From Streptomyces sp. NBC_01717 (lineage in GTDB: Bacteria; Actinomycetota; Actinomycetes; Streptomycetales; Streptomycetaceae), in NCBI RefSeq assembly GCF_036248255.1, contig NZ_CP109178.1:6510001-6574000 (forward strand): 64,000 nt of DNA, in the 5' to 3' direction. The position numbers and the translations under genes are program-made. The notes beneath the pieces are model-generated. The model was given only the letters and a program-made list of their open reading frames with translations. It searched no databases and was not told where the DNA came from. This document shows, in pieces, positions 15,958 through 61,902 of this stretch. Positions within the stretch are counted from its first letter, which is position 1. The number at the start of each line of letters is the position of its first letter.

Positions 15958-18006
15958 ATGAAGATCCGACATCTGCGCCGTTCAGCTTCTGCCTTCATTG
16001 CCGCCATCGGACTGACCGCCATGTTCCAGCACTCCGCTACCGCTACGGCAGCGGAGTCGCGGACCCACGTCGAGTACGGGGGACTCTCCATCGACGTCCC
16101 GGCCGGGTGGAGGCTGGTGGACCTGGAGAAGGAACCGAACGCCTGCGTACGACTCGATCAGCACACCGTGTACCTGGGGCATCCGGGAGCCCGCCAGTCC
16201 TGCCCCACCCACCTGGTCGCCGCGAAGACCGAAGCGATCGTGCTGGAGCCGTTCACCGGAGCTGCGCCCCGAGAGGATGTGCCCACCCTGAACGTCCCGG
16301 CGGGCTCCCCCGCTCCCAGGACCCTCCCGGCCGGGGACTCCCGCGAAGTACGGCTGGCCTTCGAAGGCGCAGGCGTCTACGCGACCGTCAGTTACGGGTC
16401 GTCGACGGCAGCGATCGAGGAGATCCTGGGCTCCGCCACCACCGGAAGCACGGCCGAGCCGCAGACGGTTCCGACGCCCCGGGCGCCGACTTTCACGGCA
16501 GCCCCTACCGCCATCCCGAGCACCGGCTACACCGGCAAAGCCTTCGATGCCTGCTCGGCACCCTCCTCGGGCGCCATGGCGGACTGGGCTTCCTCTCCCT
16601 ACAGAGGGGTGGGCATCTACATCGGCGGACCGAGCAGGGCCTGTTCCCAGCCGAACCTCACCGCTTCATGGGTGGCCGAGCAGAGCAGCCGTGGCTGGCA
16701 TCTGCTCCCCATCTACACGGGCCTCCAAGCCGGGAGCATCTCGTCGTCGAGCGCGACCAGCCAGGGCCGGTCGGCCGCCGATGCGGCTGTGGATCTGGCA
16801 CAAGCGCTCGGATTCGTCCCCGGCACGGTGCTCTACATCGACATGGAGGCGTACTCCTCGGGCTACCGCACCAACGTCCTCAACTACCTCTCCGGCTGGT
16901 CCGCCCGTCTGCACGAACTGCGGTACCGGTCAGGCGTGTACAGCTCCTCCTCCAGTGGCATCAAGGACCTCGCCTCCGTCTACTCGTCCACGACGCTGGT
17001 ACGTCCGGACGTGGTCTGGGTCGGCAACTGGAACGGTGTGGCCAACACCGCCGACGTGAACATCCCGGCCGGGTACTGGGCCAACCATCAGCGTGTTCAC
17101 CAGTACTCGGGCAATGTCACCGAGTCGTACAGCGGGACGACGATCAACATCGACCGGAACTACGTCGACGTCGGCGCCGCTGCGACCACGGGCGACCCGG
17201 GTATGACAAACCTGACGGCCGGTGACTTCAACGGGGACGGCAGGAAGGACCTGGTGGCCGTTCAGGTGGCGACGGGCAACCTGTGGCTGTATCCCGGTAC
17301 GGGCACGGGCAATCTGACGTCGCCGCCGCTGCTGATCGGCAAGGGCGGCTGGAACGGCATGGCGAATCTGGCCGTCGGTGACTTCAACTCGGACGGCAGG
17401 GACGACATCGTCGCCACGGAGAAGTCGACCGGGAAGCTCTACCTCTACAAGGGCCACGGCAACGGCACCATCGACGGCGGCCCCTCCCGGACGGAGATCG
17501 GTTCCGGCGGCTGGAACGGGATGAGCAACATCTTCGTCGGTGACTTCACGGGTGACGGCAGGGATGACCTCGGCGGTGTCGAGAAGTCGACCGGGAAGCT
17601 CTACCTCTACCGGGGCCACGGCAACGGCACGATCGACGGCGGCTCCTCCCGGACGGAGATCGGCTCCTACGGCTGGAACGGCATGGACAAGATCGTCAGT
17701 CCCGGTGACATGAACAGGGACGGCAGGGACGACATCGTCGCCACCGAGAAGTCCACCGGGAAGCTCTACCTCTACAAGGGCCACGGCAACGGCACCATCG
17801 ACGCCGGTCCCTCCCGCACCGAGATCGGCTCCCGTGGCTGGAACGGCATCTCGGACTACGCAGGCGCCGACTTCACCGGTGACGGTACGGGTGACCTGAT
17901 GGCCGTCAAGTCCGAACCGGGTGCCACCGGGAAGCTCTACTTCTACAAGGGCACCGGCAAGGGCGGCCTCAACACCCGCGTCGAGATCAGCTCGGGCGGC
18001 TGGTGA
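15958..18006 (+). CDS. Secreted DUF1906 glycoside-hydrolase-like protein with FG-GAP repeats
   Basis: A 682-aa exported protein. Residues 1-33 are a Sec signal ending A-T-A-A. Residues about 34-150 are an unassigned N-terminal domain. Residues about 190-410 are a DUF1906 (Rv2525c-like) TIM barrel: YTGKAFDACSAPS, GVGIYIGGP, LYIDMEAYSSGY, GVYSSSSSGI, VWVGNWNGVA. Residues 415-682 form five FG-GAP/VCBS blades with calcium loops such as DFNGDGRKDLV and DFTGDGRDDLG, likely a beta-propeller for binding cell wall or carbohydrate. The role is probably peptidoglycan or polysaccharide processing outside the cell. GGGAAGAGAG precedes the ATG. A hairpin terminator follows. Confidence 0.87.
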   Translation: MKIRHLRRSASAFIAAIGLTAMFQHSATATAAESRTHVEYGGLSIDVPAGWRLVDLEKEPNACVRLDQHTVYLGHPGARQSCPTHLVAAKTEAIVLEPFTGAAPREDVPTLNVPAGSPAPRTLPAGDSREVRLAFEGAGVYATVSYGSSTAAIEEILGSATTGSTAEPQTVPTPRAPTFTAAPTAIPSTGYTGKAFDACSAPSSGAMADWASSPYRGVGIYIGGPSRACSQPNLTASWVAEQSSRGWHLLPIYTGLQAGSISSSSATSQGRSAADAAVDLAQALGFVPGTVLYIDMEAYSSGYRTNVLNYLSGWSARLHELRYRSGVYSSSSSGIKDLASVYSSTTLVRPDVVWVGNWNGVANTADVNIPAGYWANHQRVHQYSGNVTESYSGTTINIDRNYVDVGAAATTGDPGMTNLTAGDFNGDGRKDLVAVQVATGNLWLYPGTGTGNLTSPPLLIGKGGWNGMANLAVGDFNSDGRDDIVATEKSTGKLYLYKGHGNGTIDGGPSRTEIGSGGWNGMSNIFVGDFTGDGRDDLGGVEKSTGKLYLYRGHGNGTIDGGSSRTEIGSYGWNGMDKIVSPGDMNRDGRDDIVATEKSTGKLYLYKGHGNGTIDAGPSRTEIGSRGWNGISDYAGADFTGDGTGDLMAVKSEPGATGKLYFYKGTGKGGLNTRVEISSGGW

Positions 18007-18137: not shown

Positions 18138-19037
18138 TCAGCCCGCCATCGGCAGGATCCTCCGCGACGGCGCCGCGCGCAGTTCGTCCACGGCCACCGC
18201 CTCCCCGCTGTCCGCGTCGACATAACTGACACGGACGATCGGGTCGTCACCGGTGTCGCGGCCCGCCGTGGCGTCGAGTGCGAACACCACCGCGACCGGG
18301 CGCGCGTTCTCCCGGTCCCCGTACACCCCCGAGTACTGGAGAATGCGCCAGCCGTCGTCCTCCCAGTGGTCCAGCAAGGCGGACCGGACCACTGGTGCGG
18401 CGGCCTGCCAGGCGAGGGAGTTCTCCAGGAGTTCGACGCTCGCCGCGACCGGCACCTGGTCGGTGGCGGTGCCGAGGAGCGGGTGCCCGAAGACACGCAG
18501 CCTCGTCCGGCGCAGTGGCAGCAGCCACCACCGGTCGAGGTCGGCCGAGAGGGCGACCAGAACCGCCGCCGCCCCGGCCAGGAAGGCCAGGGCACCGGCA
18601 GGCCGCTCGGTGACCGCCGGCCACCAGGTGTCCTGTGCCACCGCCACCGTGGCCCCGCCGATGAGCACGACCGCCGCCCGCGCGAACGCCCGCCAGGTGA
18701 TGGGGGTGTCCTCACTTGCCGAGCAGCCGCAGGAGGACTCCGGTGCCACGGCCCGGCCGTAGCCGAGGTAGCCGAGGAACCCCGCCCCGAGGACCGCGGC
18801 GGCCGCCCCCGGCACCGGGTTCGCCGGGACGACCAGCAGACCCGCGGCGATCAGGAGTTCACCTGCGCCGGTCGCACGCAGTACCGTCGTGGCCCGCTCA
18901 CTGCTGCGCAGCATGCGGGCCAGCGCCGTCTTCGGCGCCTGCTGTGCGGTGCCCCGGCTGAACACCTTGACCGCACCGGTCCACCCGAGCAGGCCCGCGA
19001 GGACCAGCGGGGCGAGGCCCGTTGTCAGTGACAGCAT
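18138..19037 (-). CDS. MauE/DoxX-like integral membrane protein
   Basis: A 299-aa protein. The first 180 residues hold four to five membrane helices typical of MauE, the quinone-linked thiol-oxidase fold related to DoxX and VKOR: LAPLVLAGLLGWTGAVKVFS, LLIAAGLLVVPANPVPG, GFLGYLGYG, then a CxC pair in ESSCGCSASED, and AVVLIGGATVAVA. The C-terminal 100 residues form a soluble domain of unknown role. It is the last gene of a three-gene leftward operon, 31 bp after the Tat protein. By family it could supply disulfide-forming power to the Cys-rich protein encoded first in the operon; that link is inference. Confidence 0.8.
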   Translation of the reverse strand: MLSLTTGLAPLVLAGLLGWTGAVKVFSRGTAQQAPKTALARMLRSSERATTVLRATGAGELLIAAGLLVVPANPVPGAAAAVLGAGFLGYLGYGRAVAPESSCGCSASEDTPITWRAFARAAVVLIGGATVAVAQDTWWPAVTERPAGALAFLAGAAAVLVALSADLDRWWLLPLRRTRLRVFGHPLLGTATDQVPVAASVELLENSLAWQAAAPVVRSALLDHWEDDGWRILQYSGVYGDRENARPVAVVFALDATAGRDTGDDPIVRVSYVDADSGEAVAVDELRAAPSRRILPMAG

Positions 19038-19068
19038 CTCTACCTCTCTCTGTGTCCTTGGGCCTGTA

Positions 19069-19683
19069 TCAGTGCCCGACGGAGATGCGGACGACGTCCA
19101 CGGAGTTGTCGGACGGCCGCCAGGCACCGAGCACCTGGGCGCTCTGCCCGATGCGCAGCCGGGACAGGTCGGACGTCAGCGCGCGGCCCGCGTAGGAGGC
19201 GCTGGCGTCCGGGGCGACGTGGCCGACCAGTTCGTGCTGCCCGTGGGCGAGGTGCAGCCGGTTCTTCGCGATGCCGCGGATCTGCGTGTCCAGATTCACG
19301 ATGTTCACCCACACCGCGTCGGCGGCCACGGTGCCGTCCGGCATCTTGACGCCGCGTGCGTAGAGCCCGTCGCCGACCTCGATCACTTCGGCTGTGGTGG
19401 CGCGCACCTTCCACACGCTGGTGACGTTGGTCATCTGCACCCGGGAGTGGCCGCCATTGGATCCGGCCACCTCCAGGATGCTGCCGGTGATGCCCGTGAT
19501 GCGGCCCTCCACGAAGGTGGACTTGGCTATCGCGGGGTCGAGCGAGGGTTCCGCGGCGAAGGCGGCCTCGGCGTCGAGGCCGCCGAGCGCGGTCGCGCCG
19601 ATGATGGTCGCGCCGCCCAGGGCGGCATTGGTGAGGAAGCGCCGGCGGCGCATCCCGTCGGCCCGGTCGTGTCGTACGGTCAT
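19069..19683 (-). CDS. Tat-exported protein of unknown function
   Basis: A 204-aa protein with a twin-arginine signal (RRRRFLTNAALGGATIIG) ending near AAFAAEP. The mature part is beta-rich and begins STFVEGRITGITGSILEVAG, resembling DUF5666-like/OB-type units that recur as GRALTSDLSRLRIGQSAQV. No cysteine or enzyme motif is seen in the mature part. GAGGAGG gives a strong ribosome site 6 nt before the ATG. It lies 11 bp after the Cys-rich gene and 31 bp before the MauE gene, so all three are co-transcribed. Confidence 0.75.
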   Translation of the reverse strand: MTVRHDRADGMRRRRFLTNAALGGATIIGATALGGLDAEAAFAAEPSLDPAIAKSTFVEGRITGITGSILEVAGSNGGHSRVQMTNVTSVWKVRATTAEVIEVGDGLYARGVKMPDGTVAADAVWVNIVNLDTQIRGIAKNRLHLAHGQHELVGHVAPDASASYAGRALTSDLSRLRIGQSAQVLGAWRPSDNSVDVVRISVGH

Positions 19684-19694
19684 GTCGGTCCTCC

Positions 19695-20117
19695 TCACTC
19701 GTAGATGTAGACCGGCAGCTTGCCCGAGCTCAGGTTGCCGATCGCCGAGAAGGCGGCCGGCGTCAGGTCGAGGACGCGGTTGGTGCGACAGGTGCCGTTG
19801 CAGCAAGTCGCCTCGCCGCACCAGTCCTTGGTGCGCGGGCCGCAGTCGGTGATCGTGATGCACACCGTCGCGCCCGAGCACTGGTGCTTGACGTTCATCA
19901 CCGCGCCGCAGCCGCGTCTGGGGATGTTCTCGCCGCAGAGGTCGGGCCGGGTGATGTTCCAGCACGCCTGTGAGGCATTGGGCCATGCGCCGTGGTGTGC
20001 GCTGGACTGGCAGTTGCCGCAGGCGCCGCCGCCGGCACTGGAGCATGGCCCCCAGGCGTTGCCGCAGCAGAACCAGCTGGTTTCACCGGCCCACAGGCTG
20101 GTTGATCCGCAAGCCAT
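19695..20117 (-). CDS. Cysteine-rich double-psi beta-barrel (RlpA/expansin-like) protein
   Basis: A 140-aa protein with 16 cysteines (11%). The C-terminal half has the barwin/RlpA pattern: TVCITITDCGPRT, then CNGTCRTNRVLDLTPAAFSA and a final KLPVYIYE. Expansins and RlpA use this fold to loosen or cut cell-wall polymers. The N-terminal half (CCGNAWGPC, GACGNCQ) is a Cys/Gly/Trp-rich module. No signal peptide is visible at either possible start; AGGAGGGG lies 8 nt before the ATG at 20117. So many cysteines suggest a disulfide-rich protein that needs export and oxidation, and the next two genes encode a Tat protein and a MauE-like redox membrane protein. Confidence 0.75.
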   Translation of the reverse strand: MACGSTSLWAGETSWFCCGNAWGPCSSAGGGACGNCQSSAHHGAWPNASQACWNITRPDLCGENIPRRGCGAVMNVKHQCSGATVCITITDCGPRTKDWCGEATCCNGTCRTNRVLDLTPAAFSAIGNLSSGKLPVYIYE

Positions 20118-20324
20118 CGTGTTGCCCCTCCTAGGAAGTGACAAGTGCATGACAAACACTGGACCGGCCGTCGACGCGCACATGTGAAGCGGGGATGCCC
20201 GTGTTGCGGCCGGGGATGGTTGTGCGAGCGAAGCAACCCAATGATGCGCGTAGACAAGCGGGTTGCATAGATGGCCTCGTTCCGCATCACCGATGGCCTC
20301 GTCGGCCGGATGGCGAGCCGGTGA

Positions 20325-21258: not shown

Positions 21259-22686
21259 TCATCCTTTGACGACGCCCAGCGGCACCAGTCGGGCGACCAG
21301 CCGGGCGAGTCCGGCGCCCTCGGTGACCGCGGTGACCGCGTCGACATCCTTGTACGCCTCCGGCGCCTCCTCGGCGAGACCACGCCACGAGGACGGGCGT
21401 ACGGCGATGCCCCGAGCCTCCAGCTCGCCGCGAAGCTGCTCCCCGCGGACCATGCGCAGCGCGTGATGGCGGCTCCAGACCCGGCCGGCGCCGTGGCAGG
21501 CGGAGTGGAAGGCTTCGTTTCCGGGCAGGCCGACCATCACGTACGAGGCGGTGCCCATCGTTCCGGGGACCAGTACCGGCTGGCCCGCCCGGACGAGGTC
21601 CTCGGGCAGGCTCGGGTCGCCGGGCGGCAGCGCCCGCGTCGCGCCTTTGCGGTGGACGCACAGTGGACGTGCCACACCGTCCACTTCGTGGGTCTCGAGT
21701 TTGGCCGTGTTGTGCGAGATGTCGTAGACCAGCTCCAGGCCGACTCCCGCAGCCGTCGCGAAGGCGTGGCGGGCGGCTTCGGACAGCAGCTGGCGGTTGG
21801 CCCGGCCGTAGTTGGCGGCTGCCGCCATCGCCCCCAGGTAGGCGTGGCCCCGCGGCGACTCCACCGGCGTGCAGGCCAGCTGCCGGTCCGGGACCTGGAT
21901 GCGATGCCGGTGCAGTTCCTGGTCCATCAAGCGGACGTGGTCGGTGCACACCTGATGTCCCAGGCCGCGTGAGCCGCAGTGGATCATGACGCACACCTGG
22001 CCCACCCGCAGCCCGAAGGCCGCCGCGGTGGCCGTGTCGAAGATCTGGTCGACGGCCTGGATCTCCAGGAAGTGGTTGCCCGAGCCGAGGCTTCCCACCT
22101 GGTGGAGGCCGCGTTCGACGGCGCGCCTGCTCACCTGCCCCGGGGCCGCGCCGTCCAGGACGCCGTAGTCCTCGCAGCGCGCGAGGTCGCGCGGCACACC
22201 GTGCCCGTGCTCGACCGCGTACCGAGCGCCGCCGACCAGCAGCTCGTCGATCTCCCCGGCGCCCGAGAGCTTCCACAGGCCGCCGCGCCCCATGCCGCGC
22301 GGGATGGTGCCGTCGAGGATGTCCATCAGCCGCCGCAGCCGGTCGTGGCCGAGCGCCTCATGGTCGATGTCGGCGGCCAGCAGCCGTACGCCGCACGAGA
22401 TGTCGAACCCGACGCCGCCGGGCGAGATCACCCCGCCGTGGGAGATGTCGGTGGCGGCCACTCCGCCGATCGGGAAGCCGTAGCCCCAGTGGATGTCGGG
22501 CATGGCGAAGGAGGCGCGGACGATGCCGGGCAGCGTGGCCACGTTCGCCACCTGCTCCAGCGCCTTGTCCCCGGCCGCCTGTGGCAGCAGCGCCCGTGAG
22601 GCGAACACCATCCCGGGTACCCGCATCGGCTCCCGCTGCTCGATACGGAAGCGGTACGGGCCCTTCTCCACCAGTGCGATGTCCAC
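21259..22686 (-). CDS. rtcB: RNA-splicing ligase RtcB
   Basis: A 475-aa GTP-dependent RNA ligase that joins 2',3'-cyclic-phosphate or 3'-phosphate ends to 5'-OH ends. Metal- and GTP-site motifs are present: [63 protein letters not shown], the guanylation region [15 protein letters not shown] and [17 protein letters not shown] start with GGAGGTGAG upstream, 4 bp after the CapA stop. It is the third gene of an archease-CapA-rtcB operon, so a healing/sealing RNA repair role under damage is likely. Confidence 0.95.
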
Positions 22687-61178: not shown

Positions 61179-61184
61179 TAGTGT
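61179..61184 (+). promoter_or_regulatory. -10 box TAGTGT of a probable leaderless npdG transcript
   Basis: TAGTGT (TAnnnT) ends 7 nt before the ATG at 61192, so transcription should start at the A of the ATG. No ribosome site is present. Confidence 0.6.
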
Positions 61185-61191
61185 CGGGCCC

Positions 61192-61902
61192 ATGACTACG
61201 AATGACAGCGGCAGCGCGCCCAAGCCCCCCGCCAAGGACCCCTGGGACCTTCCCGACGTATCCGGGCTGACCGTCGGCGTGCTCGGCGGCACCGGCCCGC
61301 AGGGCCGCGGTCTCGCCTACCGGCTCGCGCGCGCCGGGCAGAAGGTGATCATCGGCTCCCGCGCCGCCGACCGCGCCCGGACCGCCGCCGCCGAGCTGGG
61401 CCTCGGCGTCGAGGGCGCCGACAACGCCGAGTGCGCCCGCCGCAGCGACGTCGTGATCGTCGCCGTGCCGTGGGACGGCCACGCCAAGACCCTGGAGTCG
61501 CTGCGCGACGAGCTCGCCGGGAAGCTCGTCATCGACTGTGTCAACCCGCTCGGCTTCGACAAGCAGGGCGCGTACGCCCTGAAGCCCGAGGAGGGCAGCG
61601 CCGCCGAGCAGGCCGCCGCCCTGCTGCCCGAGTCCCGGGTCACCGCGGCCTTCCACCACCTCTCGGCGGTGCTGCTCCAGGACGAGGCGATCGAGGAGAT
61701 CGACACGGATGTGCTGGTGCTGGGCGAGGCCCGCGCCGACACCGATCTCGTGCAGGCGCTCGCCGGCCGGATCCCCGGCATGCGCGGCATCTTCGCGGGC
61801 CGGCTGCGCAACGCCCACCAGGTCGAGTCGCTGGTCGCCAACCTGATCTCGGTCAACCGCCGCTACAAGGCGCACGCCGGGCTGCGCACCACGGACGTCT
61901 GA
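61192..61902 (+). CDS. npdG: F420:NADPH oxidoreductase (NADPH-dependent F420 reductase)
   Basis: A 236-aa enzyme that moves hydride between NADPH and coenzyme F420, feeding F420H2-dependent reductases. N-terminal Rossmann motif TVGVLGGTGPQGRGLAYRLA, with the NADPH-specific GSRAADRA, then IVAVPWDGHAKTLESL, DCVNPLGFDKQGAYAL and AFHHLSAVLLQ. The start at 61192 gives MTTNDSGSA. Pairs functionally with LLM-type F420 enzymes such as that at 24474-25403. Confidence 0.93.
   Translation: MTTNDSGSAPKPPAKDPWDLPDVSGLTVGVLGGTGPQGRGLAYRLARAGQKVIIGSRAADRARTAAAELGLGVEGADNAECARRSDVVIVAVPWDGHAKTLESLRDELAGKLVIDCVNPLGFDKQGAYALKPEEGSAAEQAAALLPESRVTAAFHHLSAVLLQDEAIEEIDTDVLVLGEARADTDLVQALAGRIPGMRGIFAGRLRNAHQVESLVANLISVNRRYKAHAGLRTTDV

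Follow-up and report, generated by a model that had tools for sequence, protein, structure and literature searches.

Three adjoining genes of Streptomyces sp. NBC_01717 encode a Cys-rich DPBB protein that has no signal peptide, a protein with a Tat leader and a membrane protein of the MauE family. They are conserved as a unit, and homologues of the first two occur elsewhere as a single fused protein. With middling confidence, these observations are taken here to describe an autonomous cassette in which a disulfide-rich, expansin-like DPBB protein would leave the cell by Tat hitchhiking on its leader-bearing partner and would be oxidized before or during export with the help of the MauE protein. 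The window is the whole stretch of 64,000 nucleotides that was analyzed, and the features of the cassette are collected in Table 1.

Table 1. The trio and its upstream elements, in coordinates of the window.
Feature	Position	Strand	Description and basis
DPBB protein gene	19695..20117	-	140 aa, 16 Cys; translation, PF03330
Tat-leader protein gene	19069..19683	-	204 aa, 0 Cys; translation
MauE-family membrane protein gene	18138..19037	-	299 aa, one CGC; translation, PF07291
Shine-Dalgarno AGGAGGGG	20125..20132	-	precedes DPBB start; sequence
Conserved upstream motif TTGTCATGCACTTGTCA	20139..20155	-	candidate regulatory site; sole exact match within window

Organization and distribution of the trio

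The genes form an operon-like run on the minus strand, in the order DPBB, Tat, MauE, with gaps of 11 and 31 nt. An earlier note on this DNA, which gave the trio no strand, had described such a run, made up of a 16-Cys barrel protein, a Tat protein and a MauE-like protein with a CxC pair (CGC); the translations and the Pfam matches confirm all three parts, and the order is kept at nearly all of the related loci examined.

A scan of species genomes for the DPBB protein gave 204 loci, the best 80 of which were examined: 75 from Streptomyces, near genera and a MAG, and five from Amycolatopsis, Herbihabitans and Kibdelosporangium. All of these best 80 also encode Tat and MauE homologues, so that the open reading frames cannot be products of chance, and the same-strand order is clean in 79, some of the MauE genes being cut by contig ends. 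At one Streptomyces violaceusniger locus (L041) the Tat gene lies in two frames, perhaps through an assembly error. Because the 80 loci had been chosen by their DPBB similarity, a second, separate genome test was run. Among 295 genomes of the same genus (Streptomyces, to judge by nearly identical loci), the DPBB profile found strong matches in 21 (E of 1.5e-60 or better), along with a further weak match that carries a stop (G431, 6.3e-4), and the Tat profile found exactly the same 21. The DPBB-Tat pair is accordingly sporadic, occurring in about 7% of the genus sample, with no split case among the 295 genomes. Phylum-wide, across 396 genomes, strong matches to the DPBB or the Tat protein appeared in the genome of origin only; class-wide, across 345 genomes, the DPBB protein was found in four, and in the three besides the genome of origin it adjoins Tat and MauE genes; in a sample of 130 genomes from another family it was found in eight, each time with both partners beside it. 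The earlier note had held that a lack of co-conservation would speak against its reading; the trio proves to be co-conserved at the examined loci and in the family sample, as does the DPBB-Tat pair in the genus sample. A signal-less protein beside a Tat-leader partner, in a conserved pair, is one mark of a Tat hitchhiker pair, and it is what is found here.

No gene family outside the trio is common among its neighbors, the most frequent occurring in 15 of the 87 records of a survey whose crude gene caller missed about one quarter of the trio genes, and for this reason the cassette looks self-contained. In the window it adjoins a gene (15958-18006, plus strand) whose product, of a family not common at the other trio loci in that survey, combines an Rv2525c glycoside-hydrolase-like domain with FG-GAP repeats. 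Near the trio also lies a gene for an RtcB RNA ligase (21259-22686, minus strand).

The 17-bp motif TTGTCATGnACnnGWCA is placed 32-190 nt upstream of the DPBB start. Of 81 upstream regions, each 220 nt long, 61 contain its GTCATG part, against 2.4 expected from mononucleotide shuffling; many of these regions come from related genomes, and they include 59 distinct 36-nt site sequences. A search of the genome of origin gave no clear regulon for the motif (seven sites, with four for the control), and the three-gene cassette contains no regulator gene. A copy with one mismatch at 61182-61198 of the window (minus strand) is probably due to chance.

Properties of the three proteins

The DPBB protein begins MACGSTSLWAGETSWFCCGNAW and has no signal peptide. 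This absence, already remarked in the earlier note, is borne out by a comparison of N termini among 93 homologues, in which a median of 15 residues precedes the conserved FCCG. Only two have more than 30 residues in this region (62 in P0006 and 42 in P0104), and in both the N-terminal stretch is charged and an internal Met stands at the usual start. As these two look like early start calls and the median is 15, the missing signal is real and not a start-site error.

A search identified 107 further homologues beyond the protein in the window. Membership in the DPBB_1/RlpA-like family (PF03330) is supported by a score above the curated Pfam cut-off (E = 1.3e-7, 32.2 bits versus 28.8) and by the DPBB fold of the AF2 model (mean pLDDT 87.9, with residues 21-28 below 50), whose closest folds are PA4485, loosenin, kiwellin and expansin domain 1. 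Two expansin-type Asp residues, the pair conserved in domain 1 of EXLX proteins, are kept in the split homologues, D91 in 93 of 93 and D117 in 92 of 93; a weak match to 4jcw (E 0.052) places D117 opposite the Asp of its LDLS, and D91 was equated by eye. The expansin-like reading of the earlier note thus gains from the expansin-, loosenin- and kiwellin-like model and from the two retained Asp residues, and its suggestion of a spore-surface role finds no support in the present data.

Closer assignments were tried and rejected. The protein is not a full expansin (EXLX), for it stops at the end of the DPBB domain, with the second carbohydrate-binding domain missing, and NCBIfam expansin_EXLX1 gives 15.5 bits versus a cut-off of 100. 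RlpA proteins are marked by a lipoprotein or Sec signal and, in Gram-negative members, by a SPOR domain. The DPBB protein shares PF03330 with them and is called an RlpA-type lytic transglycosylase by some sources, but this name was set aside for a protein whose 140 aa hold PF03330 with no further domain and neither kind of signal. In contrast to expansin domain 1, loosenin, kiwellin and the Streptomyces papain inhibitor, the present DPBB protein combines at least 14 Cys with the absence of a signal and of a second expansin domain, and its export, if any, would be with a partner.

Fourteen Cys columns are present in at least 87 of the 93 homologues. C84 or C86 occurs in 38 of the 40 sequences that have C3 and in none of the 53 that do not, a pattern of covariation suggesting that C3 and C84/C86 pair as a disulfide would. 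The link reflects about five changes on the tree, and in the three supported independent pairs that it offers, two agree and the third shows no difference, so that significance is unreachable.

The leader of the Tat protein, RRRRFLTNAALGGATIIGATALGGLDAEAAFAAEP, begins MTVRHDRADGMRRRRFLTNAALGGATIIGATALGG and ends AFAAEP, and RRx[FLV][LMV] is present in the leader of all 80 Tat protein sequences. In 46 of 47 divergent orthologues, the hydrophobic and cleavage region of the leader (residues 18-44) is conserved at least as well as the mature protein. The AF2 model (mean pLDDT 74.4, pTM 0.67, residues 1-51 below 50) consists of two OB-type barrels, for which OB-fold matches were found. Although an OB-type barrel is modeled, assignment to DUF5666 was rejected (E = 0.18, 12.6 bits versus the Pfam cut-off of 27). 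A search with the Tat protein gave 794 matches including itself, and among the matches listed many carry the source-given label "cell wall protein."

Assignment of the third protein to the MauE family (PF07291) rests on a score above the Pfam cut-off (E = 5.4e-12, 46.6 bits versus 27) and on about five hydrophobic segments; to these are added an SSCGC loop and a soluble C-terminal domain. Both Cys of the CGC are found in 95% of 81 MauE sequences, a set that includes cut or masked ones. From the charge and hydropathy profile, the CGC loop is predicted to lie on the positively charged, cytoplasmic side, in which case MauE would act before, not after, export. A cytoplasmic CGC could equally be compatible with reduction or metal handling.

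The fused form in Streptosporangiales

A second architecture, which surfaced as weak class-wide matches, is a single protein of about 320 aa in which an OB part resembling the Tat protein is followed by a Cys-rich DPBB. Profile comparison by hhalign relates both of its parts to the split proteins, the Tat profile at 96.7% (E 3.5e-10, 159 columns) and the DPBB profile at 95.5% (E 1.3e-8). A search with the fused protein gave 136 matches including the query, and the named ones among those listed we take to belong to Streptosporangiales (Nocardiopsis, Thermobifida, Streptosporangium, Nonomuraea, Actinomadura and others); the genome of origin of the window yielded no fused match. Scans of one fused protein against each of Pfam and NCBIfam returned no family name, and as the Pfam scan gave no domain it gave no anti-sigma domain either. 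The fusion of homologues that are separate elsewhere is good evidence of one shared complex, and it lends independent support to the partnership that the earlier note had proposed for the first two proteins.

The MauE protein follows the fused form as it does the split one. It adjoins the fused gene in the first three loci fetched and, among the best 30 fused loci, a MauE gene with CGCFG lies downstream on the same strand in all 30; upstream, all 30 have a divergent sigma gene. All 12 sigma proteins tested (those of L110 and L111 and ten from the 30 loci) score above the cut-off of the SigE family TIGR02983. In the fused family, the 33 MauE sequences show the same charge pattern as those of the split system, together with two extra invariant C-terminal Cys. 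The fused protein is present in 123 of the 130 genomes and 66 of the 68 genera of one family, which from its named proteins appears to be the Streptosporangiaceae in a broad sense; the match in G1037 has an internal stop. Fused OB-DPBB, MauE and divergent SigE-family sigma factor thus make up a near-core unit of this 130-genome family. All eight family genomes with the split DPBB protein also carry the fused gene, and therefore the two forms are not mutual replacements there.

Split and fused forms differ most in their N termini and in the expansin-type residues. The fused protein begins near an RRR(F/L/V)xAALLG-like stretch and so retains the arginines, but the alignment shows it to lack most of the leader's hydrophobic and cleavage region. 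When 80 split Tat proteins were compared with 118 fused proteins (two start-less rows of 120 having been dropped), the longest run free of R, K, D and E in the first 45 residues averaged 21.0 (17-24) in the split and 8.6 (4-17) in the fused form, and the best 15-residue hydropathy averaged 1.57 (1.26-1.83) versus 0.64 (-0.73 to 1.45), with an overlap from a few of the fused proteins. Among the sequences readable by pattern, out of 120, the fused form has Asp at the D91 position in 15 of 87 and at the D117 position in 4 of 115. Judged from these sequences, the fused form is probably not exported, yet it retains MauE. As it is without most of the hydrophobic part of the leader and has mostly lost the Asp residues, export cannot be the universal role of the module.

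A proposed export route and its alternatives

In the favored reading, the DPBB protein would be made without a signal and would fold in the cytoplasm together with its two-barrel Tat partner; MauE would support the many disulfides of this cargo from the inner face, ahead of transport; the pair would then cross the membrane via Tat, as MelC2 does on MelC1; and once outside, the DPBB protein would bind wall polysaccharide or act upon it. A probable shared complex, together with a signal-less cargo beside a Tat-leader partner, suggests the hitchhiking step, and the trio in the window is taken as the exported, wall-directed form because the split form has both the leader and the expansin-type Asp residues. 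Action of MauE before Tat would fit the preference of Tat for folded cargo. PhoA and antibody fragments passed through Tat only when their disulfides could form first, and some proteins cross without prior disulfides, according to one review (PMC6708511). With the CGC predicted inside and some Tat cargo pre-oxidized, oxidation before export would be the simplest scheme; reduction, isomerization and metal handling are possible alternative roles for MauE. The dedicated export and disulfide unit envisaged in the earlier note is supported in its anatomy and co-conservation and weakened by a CGC predicted to be cytoplasmic and by a fused family without a usable export signal.

The fused family also gives rise to a rather unlikely but substantial rival, a membrane-linked redox or stress-sensing module of the inner face. 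Its OB and DPBB parts would together make a cytoplasmic, Cys-rich receptor linked to the cytoplasmic CGC of MauE and, in Streptosporangiales, would serve the divergent sigma factor; the split form would have gained its Tat leader later, and with it a location outside the cell. The near-universal presence of the fused form in its family, with no usable leader in the homologues read, is consistent with such a role, as are the divergent sigma gene at all 30 loci examined, with its TIGR02983 matches, the two additional invariant Cys that fused-family MauE has in its C-terminal domain, predicted to be cytoplasmic, and the location predicted for the CGC loop in split and fused systems alike. It is opposed by the well-conserved Tat leader of the split form in the window, by the expansin-type Asp that this form retains and the fused form mostly loses, by the absence of a conserved sigma neighbor at split loci and by the lack of a Pfam domain in the fused protein scanned.

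Appreciably less probable is a role in metal chemistry, in which the DPBB Cys would bind zinc or copper, with cytoplasmic loading, Tat export and a MauE protein that supplies metal or thiol. The fold relatives of the DPBB protein, which we presume to act for the most part on the wall or as inhibitors rather than to carry metal, count against it, as does the joint gain and loss of C3 and C84/C86. In its favor, 30 of the 93 homologues have His at position 43 and 29 have Cys, but Ala (19) and Gly (14) also occur there. The total of Cys is odd in 42 of the 93, so that not every Cys can be in an intramolecular disulfide, and Tat does export proteins that are cofactor-loaded in the cytoplasm, according to PMC10924467. 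Least probable of all, and in our estimate a slim chance, is that the genes have unrelated functions and merely share an operon, the DPBB protein staying in the cytoplasm and not being the partner of the Tat protein. The DPBB protein indeed has no signal, and its partnership is read from sequence, but strict co-occurrence and order, and the fusion of homologues, argue otherwise.

Known systems offer partial precedents for the favored cassette. In the MauE/MauD system, MauE is needed with MauA, the small subunit of methylamine dehydrogenase, which is very disulfide-rich and has a Tat leader. The likeness lies in a MauE protein associated with a small protein of this kind; the Cys-rich protein here differs in having no leader and another fold, and a Pfam scan of the eight window neighbors found no mau genes. 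Reversed-topology VKOR, an archaeal enzyme, makes disulfides cytoplasmically. CyDisCo likewise forms disulfides before Tat transport (PMC6708511), but these precedents are engineered or archaeal, whereas a native, dedicated MauE is proposed here. The closest parallel comes from the Streptomyces tyrosinases described in PMC2758597, where MelC2, which has no signal, is exported with MelC1, where MelD2 of S. coelicolor is intracellular and its helper has no Tat leader, and where MelD1 of S. scabies is predicted to have one. To that extent the two share a small operon, a signal-less cargo, a Tat-leader helper and an intracellular sister system, with a sporadic exported and a universal internal form that correspond to the split and fused forms described here. 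They differ in that MelC2 is a copper enzyme and the present cargo a Cys-rich DPBB protein, in the two-barrel OB-type helper, in the presence of MauE in the cassette and in an internal form that is a fusion.

All parts of the cassette fall within known families or folds, and hitchhiking is itself an established principle. Among the open-access papers listed by the searches, none was found to describe the combination with a dedicated MauE, the OB escort or a fused sister system with a sigma gene. A bolder generalization, which we put forward as doubtful, is that MauE-family proteins of the present kind may be inner-face disulfide generators that oxidize a signal-less DPBB protein before it passes through Tat on an OB-fold escort, and that the fused leaderless module beside a SigE-family sigma gene may be an unrecognized, near-core redox system of Streptosporangiales. 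If true, this would be a native case of dedicated oxidative folding in the cytoplasm, coupled to Tat. The cassette bears on how disulfide-rich proteins are readied for Tat despite a reducing cytoplasm and on the roles of MauE beyond methylamine use, and it brings both questions together in a single compact unit that is strictly co-conserved and has a fused sister system lacking a signal.
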